A DNA stretch of 53,116 nt, taken from positions 1 to 53,116 of the IMG/VR virus record IMGVR_UViG_3300048672_000900; one strand, given 5' to 3'. Source of the DNA: a virus. The translations under genes and the position numbers were made by a program. How positions within the stretch are numbered: position 1 is the first letter of the stretch; each line of letters begins with the position of its first letter. The notes beneath the pieces were generated by a model that saw only the letters and a program-made list of their open reading frames with translations, ran no database searches and had not been told where the DNA came from. Positions 19,084 through 45,504 of the stretch are shown one piece after another.

Positions 19084-19485
19084 ATGGCTCAATACCCTGT
19101 CATCGTCAACCAAAGTTACGACTTTGTCTTTCAAGCACCTGCTATTCTCTCGATTGGCATTCAGAATGCTAAGGTGCTCTCAGAGGCGTCCTACAGCATC
19201 GCCAGTCTGATCAACCCAGACTTAGTTGCTCTACATGAACAAGTCAAACCTTACCTGACTGGTGGCGCTAATGATGACGCCACCACGCTCAACTACCTGA
19301 TCCTTCAAACCGTAGAAGGTGAAAAACGAGTGTACGCCATGGACTGGTTGGCTTCTGCTCCGGTGGTTGCTAACTACCACGATGTCAACTTCTACATCAA
19401 GAGCGTGAGCCCTGACAACATCCAGTACATCCGCGACCTGTTGGTGAATGCTGGGTTTACTCAGTTCAGTTATACGCAGGTGTAA
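19084..19485 (+). CDS. Unknown protein ending the small-gene run, 133 aa
   Basis: AGGA lies 8-9 nt before the ATG. The protein has a beta-rich N-terminus (YPVIVNQSYDFVFQAPA), a helical middle and a compact beta-rich C-terminus (FYIKSVSPDNIQYIRDLLVNAGFTQF). There is no signal peptide. Codons are more G/C-ending than in the preceding small genes, which may mean stronger expression. A hairpin of the GGCATA family follows 6 nt after the stop. Confidence 0.7.
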   Translation: MAQYPVIVNQSYDFVFQAPAILSIGIQNAKVLSEASYSIASLINPDLVALHEQVKPYLTGGANDDATTLNYLILQTVEGEKRVYAMDWLASAPVVANYHDVNFYIKSVSPDNIQYIRDLLVNAGFTQFSYTQV

Positions 19486-19491
19486 GAAGGC

Positions 19492-19541
19492 GGCATAAAA
19501 CCACAAGCAGGAGTAGGTATTACACCTACTCCTCTTATGCT
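19492..19541 (+). terminator. GGCATA-family hairpin closing the small-gene run
   Basis: GGCATA (19492-19497) and TATGCT (19536-19541) enclose AGGAGTAGGT/ACCTACTCCT, a 10-bp stem with a 5-nt loop. The tract after it is CTCTTATG, with a stronger T-rich tract at about 19570-19587. It marks the left edge of the gene-free region. Confidence 0.7.
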
Positions 19542-19544
19542 GCA

Positions 19545-20722
19545 ATCCAAATAACCCATGCTGCACGCCTTTTCTTTTTTCTTTTTGTATTGTATGTAAG
19601 GAGTGTGAGAGTTTCTCATACTTTTCACAACCAAGTGTTGAGATGGGTGGTGAGGTGTTTGCTTGAAACACCTCACTAAACTTTATGCGCACTTTGACTG
19701 GCAACGCACAATCAGACCTTTCTTTTGATGTCCTCACGTCAGAGGTGTTGGTTTATCGAGCTGCGTTGGGTTTGACAGCTTGCTTATGAAAAGAGGTCAA
19801 GTGTTTGGTTTTTGCATGTGGGCTGCAAGCGGTCATATGCTTGTGGCTTTTTTGAAGCGACCTTTTATTTTTGGCCCGTGGTGTTTGGAGTCGTTTGTAC
19901 AGCAAGAGTCATGTCTTGTCTCTGTACAGATAAAACAAACGTCCAGTGCTAGCAGCTGTCGGAACTGATCGCCAATACCTTTGGATGGTCTTGAGCTAAA
20001 ATCAGTGAGAGTGCGTGTAACAGGTGGATTGAAAGAATGCCTCACCACCCATCTCAATTGTAGAGGTACCGGTTAATACACACCGCATCAAAAGCAAACC
20101 AAGAAGAGGTAAGAGTATTCATGAGCGCCTAGGCAAATGCGTGGGTGTCACTTGCAAGCGGTTGGTTCGCCTAAGAAGTTGTTTGGTCTGTGGTTGAACA
20201 TGAGTTGTGCACGTTAACAGCAAAAGAGTTAGCCAGATAACAGGTTTGAAAGAGGTATGGAAGTGCGGCAGCTGCATCCAGGGTTGGGATGCCCCTAAGC
20301 AGTTGCAAGCTTATATCCACCTTGACGGTAAGACCTTGGTGAATGTCTGGTGGTGACTTGTCTGACTCGCTCAAGCTGAAGTCGTTTTTGAAGTAGTCAC
20401 AGGGCTTGCCCTGGTCGGTCTGGTGGTAGCCGATGAAAGAGACTTACGGATAAGGCCATTGACGTTGGTAGTGGAGTCAGTTTTCAAATCCTGATGGGTT
20501 TGAAAGCGTGTGTTTCCCTGGTAGTAAATCACAAAAGACCAAGTGGCTTGGATGGCTTGTCATGCCGATCAGCTTGCAGTGGCCAAAAGAAGGGGTTGCG
20601 CTGTTTGCTTCTTTGGGCGCCTCATGGGCTCGAATAGTGCTTTTTGGTTTGTGCGGTGTGTATTTTTATTAGCAAAGGGCTGCTGGCTTTTCTTCGGAAA
20701 GGCTGGCGGCTTCTTTTATGCC
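19545..20722 (+). ncRNA. Candidate large structured non-coding RNA, about 1.2 kb
   Basis: No plausible gene lies here: frames are short, lack ribosome sites and have unphage-like composition (G/T-rich on the plus strand). Fold signals are strong. TTGAGATGGGTGGTGAGG (19638-19655) is perfectly complementary to 20040-20057, an 18-bp stem closing a 384-nt domain. Local hairpins include a 13-bp stem at 19648-19678, a CGTTTGTACAG rod at about 19891-19941, GCAGCTGC/GCAGTTGC enclosing CATCC/GGATG (about 20269-20308), CAGGG/CCCTG at about 20400-20413, and a 10-bp stem with TGAT loop at 20483-20506. The 3' domain is closed by AAAAGAAG/CTTCTTTT and ends in TTTTATGCC. Strand and ends are inferred. An origin or a decayed gene is the main alternative. 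Confidence 0.55.
20581..20722 (+). other. 3' domain of the candidate RNA with UUCG tetraloop
   Basis: GGC-c-AAAAGAAG (20581-20592) pairs with CTTCTTTT-at-GCC (20710-20722). Inside lies GCTTTTC-TTCG-GAAAGGC (20686-20703), a stem capped by a C(UUCG)G tetraloop, which is one of the most stable RNA loops. The right arm TTTTATGCC is the same sequence used at this phage's terminators, so this may be the transcript end. Confidence 0.55.
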
Positions 20723-20782
20723 GTCCTCTTAAAAGACAAGCCTCAGTCATGGGATAGTTGCAACACTAAAGCAAAAAGACTC

Positions 20783-22927
20783 ATGACTGTTGTAGAAGAC
20801 ACCAATCCGTTTGTTCGTCCTGTCAAACAGTACAAGCGTAACTTCAGCCCTGTAAAACACATGGTGGAAGACGCTGCTCGATATTTGAGCATTATGACGG
20901 GAGATGACTATCAAAAGACTTATGCCTATGTTAAAGAAAACGTTTTAAACCCCAAGGGTAAGTTTGCTGTTAAAGATCCAGGCGTGTCCTATTTTCAACG
21001 CATGCCTAATGGGGATAGAGAGAAAAAACAAGCCCCTATTCTTGGGTTTATTAAGGAAGTCATTTCTTCCAATGAGATACTGTCGCCCAGCTGGGTCGGT
21101 TATGTTCACCCCAGCATAGAGCAGTCTATCATCTCTTTGGATACTGAAGAAAAGATACGGCTGCGCAGCGTGGCTAAGAAAGCAATGTTTGCTGCTGAGG
21201 GTCGAGACCCTTATGTCTATGCACTCAAAAAGATCGAGCAAGGTGCTCGCAAGACCAGTAACAACGCGTACTCGGGGGCTACGTGCACACCCAGTACACC
21301 TTTGTTTAATCGCAGCGCGCACACGTCTTTGACAAGTACGTGTCGCTCTACCAGTGCTTCTGGTAATGCCAATAACGAAAAACTGATCGCTGGTAATCGT
21401 CATTATCGCAATTACACGATCACTCTTAATAACATCATATCCATCATCAATCATACTGACTACGCTGAACTCCAGCAGGTGATTGACATCTACGGTATTC
21501 ACTTACCCAGTGTAGATGACATGATGGAATGTATCTTGTACAGCACTCGGTTATACTGGAGAAACTCTAAGTACGAAGCTAAGCTCAGAGATTTAGCTGA
21601 GCATATGACGCCTATACAACGCGCTGCGTTTGTGTACACGGGTGATTTATATCACATCAAGAAACACAACCAGTCTTTAATGCGAGACTTTATTGACAAG
21701 CTCTCGACTCAAGCCTGCGGTTTAACGGATGATCCGTGGCCTATTTTAAAGAAGGCTAACGACGAGTATGTAAATTTGAGCCATCAGATCTGTACAGAGA
21801 TCATGCGCGGCAACGCGAAAGATTACAACCTCATCACACATGAACAGCGTTGTATCGTTGCATCAACTCAGATCCATATTGCTAATACGGTTACAGAGTT
21901 TGGTCCGTTCATTAAAGTCTTCTTTAGAAGTGATAATGTTCCGGCCAGCGTCTCTTATTTCCCTGACAGTATCAGACGGGTTGCCGTCACCAGTGATACT
22001 GATTCGACCATCTTCACTGCCCAAGACTGGGTGATTTGGTTTATGGGCGATATTGACTTTAGCCCTAAAGGAATCTCTGTACAAGCTGCTATTACGTTTC
22101 TAGCGGCTAACACCATCATCCACGTCTTAGCCATGATGAGTGCTAACTTGAACGTGGAAGAAAAGAACATGTTCCGCATTGCCATGAAATCGGAATATCG
22201 TTTTGATGTGTTTGTACCCACTGAGATTGGTAAGACGTACTATGCCACCATTGGTTCTCAAGAAGGTAACATTAAAGCAGAGCCTGAGCGAGAGGTCAAG
22301 GGCGTGCAGCTCAAAAGCTCAAATGCACCTGAACAGCTCAACAAGCTAGCAGGTAAAATGATGAACGACATCATGGATACCGTGCTGGCAAAACAGAAGA
22401 TCAGTATCTTGAAAATACTGACTGAGATTGCTGATATAGAACGCATGGTGATGGCGTCTATCCGTCAAGGCGAGTCAACCTACCTGCGCCGAGGAGGGAT
22501 TAAGAGTCCTGAGAGCTACAGTGCGGGACCTGAAGAAAGTAACTACCAAAACCATACGCTTTGGGAAGCCATCTTCGCACCCAAGTACGGCCGCATCACA
22601 CCCCCACCTTATAACACGGCCAAGATCAGCTTAACCACGCTAGACCATAAACAACTGACTAAATGGATTGAAACGATGCCTGACCGTGAGCTGGCGCAAC
22701 GAGCAGCCGCTTACTTTGCACGCAAGGGGAAAACTGAGTTCACCACGTTTCATGCGCCCATTGAAGTACTTCGCAGTATTGGTGTGCCTGCAGAAATCGA
22801 AATGATCATTAACTACCGCAAGATCGTAGGGGAACTCATGAACTCGTTTAGGCTGGTGTTGGGTTCTTTGGGATTTGATATGTTCTGGAGCGGAGATAAT
22901 CCAGCCCTTATCTCAGATACGTACTGA
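20783..22927 (+). CDS. Family B DNA polymerase, C-terminal catalytic fragment
   Basis: The 714-aa product carries two family B polymerase signatures: motif B as ARKTSNNAYSG near residues 154-164 and motif C as TSDTDSTIF near 402-410, the latter holding catalytic aspartates. Motif A (DxxSLYPS type) and the 3'-5' exonuclease motifs are absent, so it looks like the fingers/palm/thumb part of a split polymerase whose N-terminal partner is encoded elsewhere. The B-to-C spacing of about 240 residues is far longer than usual, implying an insertion or a divergent palm. I chose ATG 20783 (MTVVEDTNPF); the open frame continues 80 codons upstream through structured non-coding sequence. No strong ribosome site was seen. 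Confidence 0.75.
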   Translation: MTVVEDTNPFVRPVKQYKRNFSPVKHMVEDAARYLSIMTGDDYQKTYAYVKENVLNPKGKFAVKDPGVSYFQRMPNGDREKKQAPILGFIKEVISSNEILSPSWVGYVHPSIEQSIISLDTEEKIRLRSVAKKAMFAAEGRDPYVYALKKIEQGARKTSNNAYSGATCTPSTPLFNRSAHTSLTSTCRSTSASGNANNEKLIAGNRHYRNYTITLNNIISIINHTDYAELQQVIDIYGIHLPSVDDMMECILYSTRLYWRNSKYEAKLRDLAEHMTPIQRAAFVYTGDLYHIKKHNQSLMRDFIDKLSTQACGLTDDPWPILKKANDEYVNLSHQICTEIMRGNAKDYNLITHEQRCIVASTQIHIANTVTEFGPFIKVFFRSDNVPASVSYFPDSIRRVAVTSDTDSTIFTAQDWVIWFMGDIDFSPKGISVQAAITFLAANTIIHVLAMMSANLNVEEKNMFRIAMKSEYRFDVFVPTEIGKTYYATIGSQEGNIKAEPEREVKGVQLKSSNAPEQLNKLAGKMMNDIMDTVLAKQKISILKILTEIADIERMVMASIRQGESTYLRRGGIKSPESYSAGPEESNYQNHTLWEAIFAPKYGRITPPPYNTAKISLTTLDHKQLTKWIETMPDRELAQRAAAYFARKGKTEFTTFHAPIEVLRSIGVPAEIEMIINYRKIVGELMNSFRLVLGSLGFDMFWSGDNPALISDTY

Positions 22928-24529: not shown

Positions 24530-26272
24530 ATGCAAACCATCCACCAAATGATCGGCCTCAGCGGCGCCATGCTGGGCGGCGGCACCTCGCTGCCCGCTCT
24601 GATTGAAAAGATCAAGGCCGCCGGCCTGACGAACGATTTTACGACGTTCGTCCCGCTGGACAACAACAGCAACTTCCCCGGCATTCACTTCAGTGGCATT
24701 GCCGTGGCGAACTTCAACGCCAGCCGCGACACCGCAGCGTACTACGTCTACCTGCTCGAAGACAGCAACCCGACGCCGCTGGAGCCCATCCGCACCTCGA
24801 TCGGCAATGAGCAAGTCGAGATCCCCCGCACCGCCGAGCAAGCCATCGACAGCCGTGCGATGGAACGCGCCAACCAGGCCGTGATCGACGCGCTGCCCAA
24901 GGGCGTCACCTGCATCGCCAGCGGCATGTCGGTCATCGGCACCTCCTTCAACGCCGGCGACCAGACGCAGCTGCGCTACTACGTCAACCTGGCGATGGTG
25001 CAGAACGGCATCGCCATGGTGCGCCTGACCGGCATCGAGCCCACCTTCAGCCTGACGCAAGTCAGGGACGCCAGCAAGGGTCTGGCCTGCAAGATCGAGA
25101 CGGTGAACAACCCGGTCATTCTTGCGGACGGCATCGTCATCGATGCCGGCCAGAAGGTGGTGGTTCGCACTCGCACGCCCAACGCCAAGGAAGGTACCAG
25201 CGCCAACAGCCTCGCGCTGAACTCGGCCGTCACCGACCAAGAACTGGTCACGGTCTACATCAAGACCGAACTGATCGAGGTCCAGCCGGTGCCGGAAATG
25301 GGCCCGATGGGCATGCCGGTGATGAGCAAGAAGTGCTGGGCGCCGCGCATCCACATCACCCACGTGGAATCGCGCACCCAGGCGGGCCTGAGCCTGATCT
25401 GGCTGGCGATCTACGGCGCCACAGAAGTCGCTCGTGACTACAACTGGGCGGTGCCGTTCCTGCCGGTGCGCGACGTGGGCAACACCATCAACCTGCGCGA
25501 GATCGCAGCGCTGAACCTGGTGGCCAAGTACTACGACGGCGGCCAGCTGTTCGACACGCGCTCGCCCAGCTTCACCCTGGCGGAGCTGAAGAACTATCTG
25601 GACGCGGTGATCCAGAACCAACCGCAGATCTGCATCGACGTCATCGGCGGCGTCACCGAGCACATGTGGCTGAGTGCGTTCACGTCGGCGGCCAACGGCA
25701 ACCCCGAAGGTGCTGACCTGACGCAGAAGTCGCTGGCGCAGTTCCTGGGCCATCGCCTGGTGACCAAGGAAAGCGGCCTGGACATGCCGACGGTGCTCGT
25801 CACCGGTAGCGTGGACACGGGCTCGGCCGAAGTGGCCTACTGCGGCGAGTACACCACCAACAGCAACCAGAAGCGCCCGATCACCGAGATCGACTTCTGC
25901 GCTGTGGCGGCGCTCACGAACGGTGATGCTGAAACGCTGCTGGCCTACCAGCAGACGACGATCGCTGCTTCTCACCTGCACGGCACTCAGCGCGCTCACC
26001 GGCGCTTCCGCCTGCATCAGCACCTGCTGCCCACGGCGGTGATCCGGCGCATCCTGCGCACGGTCATCATCCCTGGCGGCACCATCCAGGCCATGCGTGC
26101 GGCCATGGAGCAGATCTGCACCCTGCATCCGGTCGAGATCACCAATCCGCTGGTGAACTCGGTCCCGCAAGTGCAGATGTCGGCTGCGCTGATGCAGCAT
26201 GGTCTGAACCTGTCGACTCTGGGCAACCAGAACCGCGCAGGTGCAGCGTCCTACACCGGCGCCGTCCTGTAA
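24530..26272 (+). CDS. Abundant 580-aa protein; candidate nuclear-shell (chimallin-like) or virion protein
   Basis: This is the most G/C-rich gene of the window, which points to very strong expression. ATG follows AAGGA. The protein has no signal peptide or membrane segment, is mixed alpha/beta, and has an Arg/His-rich patch near residue 490 (HGTQRAHRRFRLHQHLL) and a small-residue tail. In phiKZ the shell protein ChmA (gp54, about 600 aa) lies next to an RNAP subunit gene, and here the next gene is the beta-prime N-terminal RNAP piece. Length, expression and context therefore favour a chimallin-like protein. I could not confirm this from motifs, and a major virion protein remains an equal alternative. 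Confidence 0.6.
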   Translation: MQTIHQMIGLSGAMLGGGTSLPALIEKIKAAGLTNDFTTFVPLDNNSNFPGIHFSGIAVANFNASRDTAAYYVYLLEDSNPTPLEPIRTSIGNEQVEIPRTAEQAIDSRAMERANQAVIDALPKGVTCIASGMSVIGTSFNAGDQTQLRYYVNLAMVQNGIAMVRLTGIEPTFSLTQVRDASKGLACKIETVNNPVILADGIVIDAGQKVVVRTRTPNAKEGTSANSLALNSAVTDQELVTVYIKTELIEVQPVPEMGPMGMPVMSKKCWAPRIHITHVESRTQAGLSLIWLAIYGATEVARDYNWAVPFLPVRDVGNTINLREIAALNLVAKYYDGGQLFDTRSPSFTLAELKNYLDAVIQNQPQICIDVIGGVTEHMWLSAFTSAANGNPEGADLTQKSLAQFLGHRLVTKESGLDMPTVLVTGSVDTGSAEVAYCGEYTTNSNQKRPITEIDFCAVAALTNGDAETLLAYQQTTIAASHLHGTQRAHRRFRLHQHLLPTAVIRRILRTVIIPGGTIQAMRAAMEQICTLHPVEITNPLVNSVPQVQMSAALMQHGLNLSTLGNQNRAGAASYTGAVL

Positions 26273-26286
26273 GTAAGCAGCAAGGC

Positions 26287-26390
26287 ACTGCGTGATTCTT
26301 ACCCAGAGTCACGCAGTAGCCGTCAACTAAAGAAACTCATCTGCACTAGCTCACAAGGCTGGTGTGGGTGAGTTTTCTTTTTATGCTGAC
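26287..26390 (+). terminator. Double hairpin terminator of the 580-aa gene
   Basis: A 12-bp hairpin with one mismatch (26287-26298 with 26306-26317) is followed by AAACTCATC (26333-26341) pairing with GGTGAGTTT (26367-26375), which runs into TTTCTTTTTATGC. The second is an intrinsic terminator with the family's TATGC end. Confidence 0.75.
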
Positions 26391-26400
26391 CTCTTTCTTT

Positions 26401-42998: not shown

Positions 42999-44705
42999 GT
43001 GACTGATGTACTTGGGCAAGACCCGCCTATATTTACCATCATTAAACGCACACATCACTTTGAAGTCATTTTTGGCACGCCCAGCGCTAGGGAAATAGCC
43101 AATAAATTCAGCATGGGTTTAGTCAGCTATAAGCTGGTTCCTGCCTACGGTACCACGACTCGTGTGATGGATAAGATCTACGCCGCCAGTAATAAGACGC
43201 GGTCTTACGTGAGGTACCACATCAACAGCTATGTGGACTTTATGAAACACGTGGCCAACCACGGAATTAGTCCGAGTCAAATTAAACTGGAAGTGGTTCC
43301 CGTTAAAGAAACTCCTACAGTCAAGTGGGAGATGTTTGAACACTTAAGCGCACGAGACTACCAAGAATCGTTTATCGAATATGGTGTTAGAAAAACACCA
43401 GTTTCTAAACTGATCCAGTTACAAACAGGTAAAGGCAAGTCGTTTATTGCTTGCAGTGTTGCACAGCGTTTGCAAGCACGTATCTGTTTGATGATCAAAG
43501 CCAACTACATTGATAAATGGAAGATTGACTTCAAGAAAACATTTAAACTAGAAGATGACGAGATATTTGTCATACAAGGTTCTTCCAGTTTAAAGAAAGG
43601 TATTGACTTGGTCAAGAAAGGTAAATTCACAGCCAAAGTCATTATTGTTTCTATTCCAACTTATCAAGCGTGGATCAACCTCTTTGAAGAGCTAGGACAA
43701 AAAGACTTTGAAGAGCTAGGATATTCTATTGTTCCTGATGAGTTCTTTGAGTATTTTAACGTCAAGTTAAAGATCATTGATGAAGTGCATCAGCACTTTC
43801 ATTTCTGTTTTAAGACTGACTTGTATACCCATGTCGAACACTCCATCTGTTTAACAGCGACGCTCACCCATAAGGAAGCGTTCATGAGGAAGATGTACAA
43901 CCTCATGTTTCCTATACAGGATCGTTGTGCAGAGTTGGAGTATGACCGGTATTGCAACATCTTTGCGGTGCATGCTGAGTTCAGAGACATCACTAAAGTC
44001 AAGACCAACATGTATGGTAACCCCATGTTCTCTTATGTGGCTGTAGAAAATAGCATCCGTAAGAATAAGTTCATGACCGCAGGTTACTTAGACATGCTGA
44101 CTTATACGGTACGCATTGGCTTTGATCAATGCAAAAGAGAAAAGAAAAAGCTCCTGATCTTTGTGAGTACGATTGAGATGATTGGTTTATTCATCAACCA
44201 CTTACAAAAGACACATCGTCATTTAGACATTAAACCCTACCACATGGGGCAACCTTTTGAGAACGTGCTCAATTCTGATATCTGTGTCAGTACACTAGGT
44301 AGTGCTGGTACAGCCATTGACATACCCGACTTGACGCATTGCATCTTGACTCAGAGCGTAGACTCTGAGCAAGCTAATTTACAGTCCATTGGTCGACTGA
44401 GAAAACTACCGGATGGGTATACACCTGAGTTTTACTATTGGGTGTTTGATAATATCCCCATCAGTGTCAGATACCATGACAACAAAACAAGGCTACTGAA
44501 GAACCGAGCACTCAATCAGATCTACGTACGGTATGATGCATATATTGGAGACCATACACCGACCCAGGTCTTTGAAAAGAGTAAGCCTTTAGGAGCGGCT
44601 TTTACGCCCGCTCAGGCGGCTCGCCCTGCTCCGGTAAGGCCGATGTACGGCGTACACTTTAGACCAGCTCCTGGAGCACATAGAAGCCCCACAACGTGGT
44701 CGTGA
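42999..44705 (+). CDS. SF2 DNA helicase (UvsW-like)
   Basis: This 568-aa helicase has RecA-like motifs in order: I as QTGKGKSFIA (about 141-150), II as DEVH (about 260), III as LTATL (about 284), and VI as SIGRLRKLP (about 463). Such helicases unwind branched or R-loop DNA in replication and recombination. I chose the GTG at 42999 because AGAAGGAAA precedes it; the open frame extends 62 codons upstream but passes through the RNAP terminator and a hairpin. A Pro/Ala/Arg-rich tail of about 40 residues follows the helicase core. Confidence 0.85.
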   Translation: MTDVLGQDPPIFTIIKRTHHFEVIFGTPSAREIANKFSMGLVSYKLVPAYGTTTRVMDKIYAASNKTRSYVRYHINSYVDFMKHVANHGISPSQIKLEVVPVKETPTVKWEMFEHLSARDYQESFIEYGVRKTPVSKLIQLQTGKGKSFIACSVAQRLQARICLMIKANYIDKWKIDFKKTFKLEDDEIFVIQGSSSLKKGIDLVKKGKFTAKVIIVSIPTYQAWINLFEELGQKDFEELGYSIVPDEFFEYFNVKLKIIDEVHQHFHFCFKTDLYTHVEHSICLTATLTHKEAFMRKMYNLMFPIQDRCAELEYDRYCNIFAVHAEFRDITKVKTNMYGNPMFSYVAVENSIRKNKFMTAGYLDMLTYTVRIGFDQCKREKKKLLIFVSTIEMIGLFINHLQKTHRHLDIKPYHMGQPFENVLNSDICVSTLGSAGTAIDIPDLTHCILTQSVDSEQANLQSIGRLRKLPDGYTPEFYYWVFDNIPISVRYHDNKTRLLKNRALNQIYVRYDAYIGDHTPTQVFEKSKPLGAAFTPAQAARPAPVRPMYGVHFRPAPGAHRSPTTWS

Positions 44706-44741
44706 TCATAGATTGATTTTCATCACGAGGAGAAAACAAAT

Positions 44742-44945
44742 ATGGTCCTTGACTTGATCTTGGTGTATGTCTTGTACTACATTGCAGCAGGCGCAGTGTG
44801 GTCGTCGTTTTCAAAACGATACCAAAGACGCATCATCAGACAACTGGGGTTGATCATCTTGGTCATCAGTATTGTACTGTACTGGTGGACTGATCGCCCT
44901 GCAGAAATTACACAAGCCAGTTTACTCAACTGGTTCTTTCAGTAA
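44742..44945 (+). CDS. Small membrane protein, 67 aa
   Basis: The ATG has GAGGAG upstream. Two membrane segments are predicted (LDLILVYVLYYIAAGAVW and LGLIILVISIVLYWW) joined by a basic loop (SKRYQRRIIRQ). No family is recognised. It shares the transcript of the helicase and is followed by a terminator. Confidence 0.65.
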   Translation: MVLDLILVYVLYYIAAGAVWSSFSKRYQRRIIRQLGLIILVISIVLYWWTDRPAEITQASLLNWFFQ

Positions 44946-44951
44946 GCGTGT

Positions 44952-45000
44952 CATAGGGGGCATAAAAAACCCCTATGACTTTCTTTTTCTTTTATGCCGT
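44952..45000 (+). terminator. Intrinsic terminator with GGCATA/TATGCC arms
   Basis: CATAGGGG (44952-44959) and CCCCTATG (44970-44977) form the stem, and ACTTTCTTTTTCTTTTATGCC follows. Here the GGCATA arm (44959-44964) overlaps the stem and loop, while TATGCC is at 44993-44998. Confidence 0.85.
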
Positions 45001-45020
45001 ATTGTAGAATAATAGAAGTT

Positions 45021-45028
45021 TATATTAC
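45021..45028 (+). promoter_or_regulatory. phiKZ-early-promoter-like box TATATTAC
   Basis: An exact TATATTAC lies just past a terminator and 54 bp before the ATG at 45082, the expected layout of a phiKZ-type early promoter. It is the best placed candidate promoter in the window. Confidence 0.5.
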
Positions 45029-45081
45029 TATTTTGAAGCGACTTTGCTTCTTTGTTACCTACTCACACAGGAGAATTTGAA

Positions 45082-45504
45082 ATGACCAAGTATTTCATCT
45101 CGTACAACTGCGTGGCCACCAGCATTGAAAAGCTGCTGGAGCTGATGCGCCCTCACTTCAACACAACCGTTCAGCTGCAGTACGTGGAAGAAGACGGCGT
45201 TATCTTACAAACAACGCCTACCGCTGCGCCTCAGCGCATCATGGCCCGATACAACGTTCATACTGTTGAGACGGACATTCTTAACCCTTTGATTTTTATA
45301 CGGGTTGGTCGGCGTAACGCAGAAGCTTTTACTGACCTGGATGCTTTCTTGCGGAAGTACGAAGGCGCTGTGAAAAACATTCCTAATGTAAAGGAAGCTA
45401 TGCAAGCTACTTTGGAAGCCGATAATCGCTGCAACTTTTACGCGGAATACCCCTGCCCCATTGAGCGAATTCAGTACTCAGGACTTTACTGCGTCAACAA
45501 CTGA
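45082..45504 (+). CDS. Unknown protein, first of a tandem paralogous pair, 140 aa
   Basis: ATG 45082 (MTKYFISYNC) has CAGGAG upstream. The protein is alpha/beta, with a helix IEKLLELMRPHF and a later helix FTDLDAFLRKYEGAV. The next gene has the same opening and the same FxDLxAF helix, so the two are paralogues. Its position behind a TATATTAC box suggests early expression and a host-takeover role. The family is not recognised. Confidence 0.65.
   Translation: MTKYFISYNCVATSIEKLLELMRPHFNTTVQLQYVEEDGVILQTTPTAAPQRIMARYNVHTVETDILNPLIFIRVGRRNAEAFTDLDAFLRKYEGAVKNIPNVKEAMQATLEADNRCNFYAEYPCPIERIQYSGLYCVNN

Follow-up and report, generated by a model that had tools for sequence, protein, structure and literature searches.

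The stretch of DNA analysed here (the window, 53,116 nt) encodes a nuclear shell protein, a fragment of the beta subunit of a multi-subunit RNA polymerase and a phage DNA polymerase and, judging from its sequence, is a fragment of a phiKZ-like, nucleus-forming jumbo phage. Between a gene of the SH3DP family and the DNA polymerase gene lies a gap of 1297 nt (19486-20782). The features of this region are as follows:

19084-19485, + strand: upstream gene, SH3DP family (PF20287 / phrog_3235; Pfam 3.3e-14, PHROG 1.8e-15)
19491-19543, + strand: terminator of the SH3DP gene, a AGGAGTAGGT/ACCTACTCCT hairpin between CGGCATAA and TTATGCTG (inverted repeat)
19588-19596, + strand: 5′ element TATTGTATG, putatively promoter-like (from the enrichment of ATTGTATG in gaps)
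19599-19625, + strand: predicted 5′ hairpin AGGAGTGTGAGA/TCTCATACTTTT (MFE helix, 12 bp)
19637-20058, + strand: Domain I, closed by 18 perfect bp, 19638-19655 with 20040-20057 (z -8.5)
19650-19676, + strand: alternative local hairpin GTGAGGTGTTT/AAACACCTCAC, a perfect 11-bp inverted repeat that competes with the closing helix of Domain I
19722-19745, + strand: anti-Shine-Dalgarno-like hairpin with stem CTTTTGATGT/ACGTCAGAGG (10 bp) and loop CCUC (UCCUCA, 19731-19736; P(unpaired) = 1.0 for CCUC)
20075-20664, + strand: Domain II; its closing helix of 13 perfect bp pairs 20075-20087 with 20652-20664 and continues into GCAAACCAAGAAG/CTTTTTGGTTTGT (z -4.6)
20679-20723, + strand: terminator of the RNA unit, a 14-bp hairpin (20679-20710) with a UUCG loop and a TTCTTTTATGCCG tail (inverted repeat, MFE)
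20783-22927, + strand: downstream DNA polymerase gene (phrog_2927; PHROG 1.5e-235), with its real start at ATG 20783

No ORF longer than 80 aa lies wholly within the gap on either strand, the longest being 62 aa on the + strand and 74 aa on the - strand, and a 168-aa minus-strand ORF (19231-19737) that reaches the first 250 nt of the gap overlaps the SH3DP gene. A PHROG search with six ORFs of the gap region gave no match better than E 0.18. Few parts of the window have a three-base periodicity as low as this one (0.5-0.7 in 600-nt windows over 19351-20250, versus a median of 5.1). These results bear out the sequence-only reading, which had seen no credible gene in about 1.2 kb and had placed a hairpin terminator 5′ of that stretch; we locate this terminator at 19509-19533. 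Coding explanations, which have neither PHROG nor periodicity support, were rejected. ARAGORN found zero tRNAs across the 53-kb window. Very low three-base periodicity is also seen at 44401-45300, a segment that includes the intergenic gap 44706-45051.

To characterise the fold, dinucleotide shuffles were used as the reference. The segment 19630-20068 folds with a z-score of -8.5 (0/100 shuffles), the segment 20069-20720 with -4.6 (0/20) and the whole gap with -9.3, the last from 10 shuffles only. The folding energy of the gap is -494.8 kcal/mol on the + strand versus -374.6 kcal/mol on the - strand, and 19601-20000 has the strongest + strand folding bias among 264 windows of the 53 kb; for stability after GC correction it is not at the top, a few of the 264 being more stable. 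The strand bias arises because of G-U pairs, which make up 80 of the 392 predicted pairs, and is expected of an RNA and not of a DNA element. Among 1000 shuffles, none contained an 18-bp helix such as the perfect long-range inverted repeat that closes Domain I, and none contained two helices of at least 13 bp together, as formed here with the 13-bp repeat of Domain II. The 11-bp hairpin at 19650-19676 is mutually exclusive with the closing helix of Domain I, and the RNA could therefore switch folds. Fold z-scores, + strand bias and long-range perfect helices thus back the large structured RNA that had been proposed from the letters of the sequence, and such an RNA, as modelled here, is supported as the best reading of the gene-free stretch. 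That the gap 19486-20782 encodes a structured, non-coding RNA is well supported and, in our judgement, highly likely. Strongly folding islands of about 60% GC also occur at 1-400, 2201-2600 and 26001-26400 of the window, in surroundings nearer 45% GC; that at 26001-26400 lies at the 3′ end of the gene for the nuclear shell protein.

The predicted RNA is bordered by candidate signals for its own transcription. Counting both strands, TATTGTATG at 19588-19596 is the sole copy in the window, and an element of this type is present in 9 loci. The gaps between SH3DP and DNA polymerase genes (43 kb in all) contain 9 copies of the 8-mer ATTGTATG, versus 1 in 568 kb of the neighbouring + strand; in the rest of the genomes checked, its frequency is what chance predicts. 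TATTGTATG looks like a putative locus-specific promoter or 5′ element. At the other end, the terminator hairpin at 20679-20710 is stronger than the one at 19509-19533, and a hairpin terminator followed by a TTATGCCG tail ends most RNA units at this locus. We infer a separate non-coding transcription unit of about 1.1 kb, which would start just past TATTGTATG, acting as its promoter, and end at the terminator at about 20717. In the window as a whole TTATGCCG has 12 copies versus 1.1 expected and is common at terminators. Its sites (for example 12573, 22937, 22970, 42953 and 44992) often adjoin terminator hairpins and sometimes flank one on both sides, as though TTATGCCG belonged to a terminator that works in both directions or to a linked start signal.

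The neighbours of the DNA polymerase gene were compared in 92 loci, a total that counts the window itself and some duplicate records. The SH3DP gene lies upstream of the DNA polymerase gene in 88 of the 92, and three of the four loci without it are contigs cut off no more than 450 nt from the polymerase start. The length of the gap ranges from 3 to 1902 nt, with non-coding sequence of 184-1297 nt in 39 loci from 27 lineage groups and only 89-200 nt in phiKZ-like laboratory phages. Among cultured relatives, Burkholderia phage FLC9 (L010) has a long gap, of 536 nt. Non-coding gaps mostly fold better on the + strand, while gaps that hold ORFs mostly show little strand bias. Between lineage groups the similarity of the gap sequence is lost: the gap of the nearest relative of the window (L015, 55% polymerase identity) cannot be aligned with that of the window, a DNA similarity search of phage records with the window gap gave no match, and a search for closer relatives via the upstream gene found none. 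Since the window RNA has no alignable homologue, its structure is a purely thermodynamic prediction. We regard its existence as highly likely, and it appears to be one representative of rapidly diverging structured RNAs situated between the SH3DP gene and the DNA polymerase gene.

Some loci carry a small ORF (about 110-230 aa) at the same position, instead of or besides an RNA (L006:5349-5927, L009:5430-5912 and the gaps of L080-L094); a Pfam search with two of these ORFs, those of L006 and L009, gave no match. Relatives alternate between RNA and small ORFs at this position (L006, L009, L052, L055, L058, L064 and L080-L094), and genes and RNAs seem to turn over in the slot between SH3DP and DNA polymerase genes. 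The gap of L049 (1755-2488) contains two structured blocks, the first of which has a terminator-like tail of its own and a long, near-perfect inverted repeat (about 30 bp) around GAGGACCAAAGTCCTCTTGTTTTGATGCG.

Covariation was assessed in a sister group, using an alignment (A3) of six loci (L043, L044, L046, L047, L050 and L070); the set did not include L033 and L066, in whose gaps similarity to the sister group is confined to the neighbourhood of the terminator. Compensatory double changes are found in 48 of 93 base pairs, versus 25.5 ± 3.4 in shuffled alignments (0/500) and 15-19 in slid controls. The helix that bears the pyrimidine loop is among the best covarying, with 8 of its 14 pairs showing covariation. 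As read from these aligned sequences, this is direct evolutionary evidence of RNA structure at the locus, but it does not extend to the sequence of the window itself. A covariance model of the A3 core (R1), run against 42 sources, found no convincing match outside its own members, the six training members alone scoring strongly, and no match in the window at E 10. Since R1 misses the window RNA, common descent of the window and A3 RNAs is not established. The sequence-only reading had proposed covarying base pairs as a check: they are found in the sister lineage at the same locus, and not for the window RNA, which has no alignable relative.

The swapping of RNA and small ORFs at this position would suit a decayed gene or spacer whose stable fold is incidental. 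Against this stand the fold z-scores of -4.6 to -9.3, the long-range perfect helices, the + strand bias and the sister-group covariation, and we consider this explanation largely refuted, with next to no probability left to it. The combination of low periodicity with strand-biased folding also disfavours it.

The window RNA has one pyrimidine loop complementary to Shine-Dalgarno (SD) sequences, CCUC, which is fully unpaired in the predicted ensemble. In the window the loop reads UCCUCA, most relatives have UCCUU, and the loop consensus is UUCCUU. This anti-SD motif was first spotted by eye; only afterwards were all 5-mers ranked and the shuffles run, along with controls on antisense and coding sequence. 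When all 5-mers were ranked, TCCTT (UCCUU) was the most enriched in apical loops, occurring in 14 of 30 sequences versus 1.3 expected. TCCTT, CTCCT or TCCTC lies in a predicted apical loop in 16 of the 27 groups versus 2.2 expected, the other 11 having no predicted anti-SD loop. By locus, anti-SD loops were found on the RNA strand in 24/39, on the antisense strand in 0/39, and in DNA polymerase coding and upstream coding sequence in 1/39 each. Several functions had been listed for the region from its sequence, with none chosen and the loops not noticed; among them, regulation, by way of the anti-SD loops, is the one to which this comparative evidence points.

A structured RNA adjoining the DNA polymerase gene could also be a replication RNA, that is, a primer or an origin transcript. 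We know of no replication origins in this phage group. The site has no iteron-like repeats, its direct repeats being short, irregular and degenerate, GC skew shows no switch in strand trend there beyond the G+U bias of the RNA itself, and a replication role does not predict anti-SD loops. We hold it to be very improbable.

Candidate mRNA targets were examined for the 24 sequences with anti-SD loops. In tests chosen after the loops were seen, pairing of the loop with its own DNA polymerase leader beat pairing with the swapped leaders of other lineages, both in duplex energy (p 0.005; 0.028 with one sequence per group) and in match length (p 0.012; 0.034 with one per group), and within its locus this leader was also a better partner for the loop than the other genes were (Wilcoxon p 0.006). 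L018 (11 nt), L041 (10 nt) and L046 (8 nt) provide examples of loop-leader matches. Over all loci, the RNA taken in full is no more complementary to the start of the polymerase gene than expected (mean z -0.18). In the window, the DNA polymerase leader has no SD that matches the UCCUCA loop, and the idea of the polymerase as target therefore fails for the window phage. Across the family, these comparisons are suggestive of loop pairing with the phage's own polymerase ribosome-binding site, a pairing that is absent in the window.

Since the loop-SD matches favour the polymerase leader and the position 5′ of the DNA polymerase gene is constant, we also considered a cis-acting leader of the polymerase operon, in which a long structured 5′ region would control read-through or translation within the same transcript. 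A precedent is the 180-nt structured 5′ UTR RNA upstream of p40 in phiKZ, which may end by premature termination (PMC8545117). However, a strong terminator separates the RNA from the polymerase gene in the window and most relatives, a second conserved block past the terminator in the sister group (AT[CG]ATGTAG) looks like a separate start, and phiKZ-like laboratory phages do with 89-200 nt. A cis-acting leader is, in our estimate, improbable.

Rfam searches of the window at gathering score and of the gap at E 10 gave sub-threshold noise only, no Rfam family matched any of 14 related loci, and the GOLLD model had no match in the gap up to E 10. The sequence-only reading, which had not recognised features of GOLLD or ROOL, had suggested such a covariance search, and the region matched neither of these nor any other Rfam family. 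GOLLD forms a homo-multimeric RNA nanocage and is often located near tRNA islands. According to PMC12286853, many GOLLD members exceed 800 nt, and ROOL is a large phage RNA of unknown function, presumed RNA-only, with an example of 659 nt. The window RNA resembles GOLLD as a large ornate phage RNA with elaborate long-range structure and ROOL as a large phage RNA. Unlike GOLLD, it has no Rfam-model match and no tRNA in the 53-kb window, and anti-SD loops do not figure in the GOLLD descriptions consulted. It differs from ROOL in having neither an Rfam match nor a tRNA island and in its link to the junction between SH3DP and DNA polymerase genes in nucleus-forming jumbo phages.

The window RNA could also be a large structured scaffold or an RNA-only assembly, cage-like as in GOLLD/ROOL, with the pyrimidine loops as docking or kissing sites instead of anti-SD sequences. 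Its size, closed multi-branched domains and lack of coding capacity fit, the phage RNAs GOLLD and ROOL multimerise via intermolecular contacts that include kissing loops (PMC12286853), and the CCUC loop could dock on purine-rich GAGG segments within the window RNA. However, the lengths of the relatives (184 to 1297 nt) are unlike a fixed assembly, Rfam gave no match, and the loop sequence is specifically anti-SD, with the phage's own polymerase SD matched better than swapped ones. We consider an assembly role unlikely.

A likeness in mode only, and not in membership, exists with Staphylococcus aureus RNAIII, a structured RNA whose C-rich segment pairs with the Shine-Dalgarno sequence and represses translation. 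RsaA of the same species also pairs with the SD through a C-rich segment and represses translation, blocking ribosome binding at the MgrA mRNA (PMC3961350). An unpaired pyrimidine loop complementary to the SD is likewise predicted here. RNAIII and RsaA differ in being bacterial chromosomal RNAs that have no sequence in common with the phage RNAs, in which the loop consensus is UUCCUU and regulation is putative. Among nucleus-forming phages, Grad-seq of phiKZ identified non-coding RNAs from the 3′ UTR of PHIKZ298 (about 100 nt) and the 5′ UTR of p40 (about 180 nt; PMC8545117); these lie at other loci and are UTR-derived, and the gap in the phiKZ relative SL2 is only 200 nt. The window RNA is very probably real, structured and non-coding, and a locus-specific RNA class in nucleus-forming phages appears to be undescribed in the open-access literature, a description in a subscription journal being possible.

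In nucleus-forming phages a protein shell separates transcription, which takes place within, from translation, which takes place outside, and an RNA control layer between the two is therefore a natural idea, almost unexplored. Computation shows that the locus carries a non-coding, structured sequence with strand-specific folding, a conserved position, covariation in the sister group and an enrichment of anti-SD loops. A fixed locus in many lineages, together with a loop signature that is shared despite unalignable sequence, makes it a concrete candidate for such control. In the mechanism that we propose, the two closed domains would form a scaffold that displays the apical pyrimidine loop, which is unpaired and complementary to the SD. 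We infer that the loop would bind the SD of selected phage mRNAs and block ribosome binding, with repression as the outcome; in several lineages the target would probably be the neighbouring DNA polymerase mRNA. Regulation of translation by loop-SD pairing is a tentative hypothesis, to which we give clearly less than even weight, and the loop yields a simple testable prediction. Taken as a whole, a separate non-coding RNA unit of about 1.1 kb with two domains and an anti-SD loop that represses selected phage mRNAs is the best explanation that we can offer, held with just under even confidence. More speculatively, and with considerable doubt, the RNA could belong to an undescribed, fast-diverging class of large structured RNAs fixed at the junction between SH3DP and DNA polymerase in jumbo phages that form a nucleus. 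Such RNAs would imitate the 3′ end of 16S rRNA (the anti-Shine-Dalgarno), regulate, outside the phage nucleus, how mRNAs of the phage or even of the host are translated, and have their own locus-specific promoter. If true, this would add to the large phage RNAs a class that Rfam lacks.

Complementarity to the polymerase leader is also seen in L010 (3465-4000) and L031 (1958-2500), where a conserved RNA segment, CTTGTAACGACCTGTAG, can pair near-perfectly with the leader sequence CTGTAGGTCGACAAG, just before the SD.
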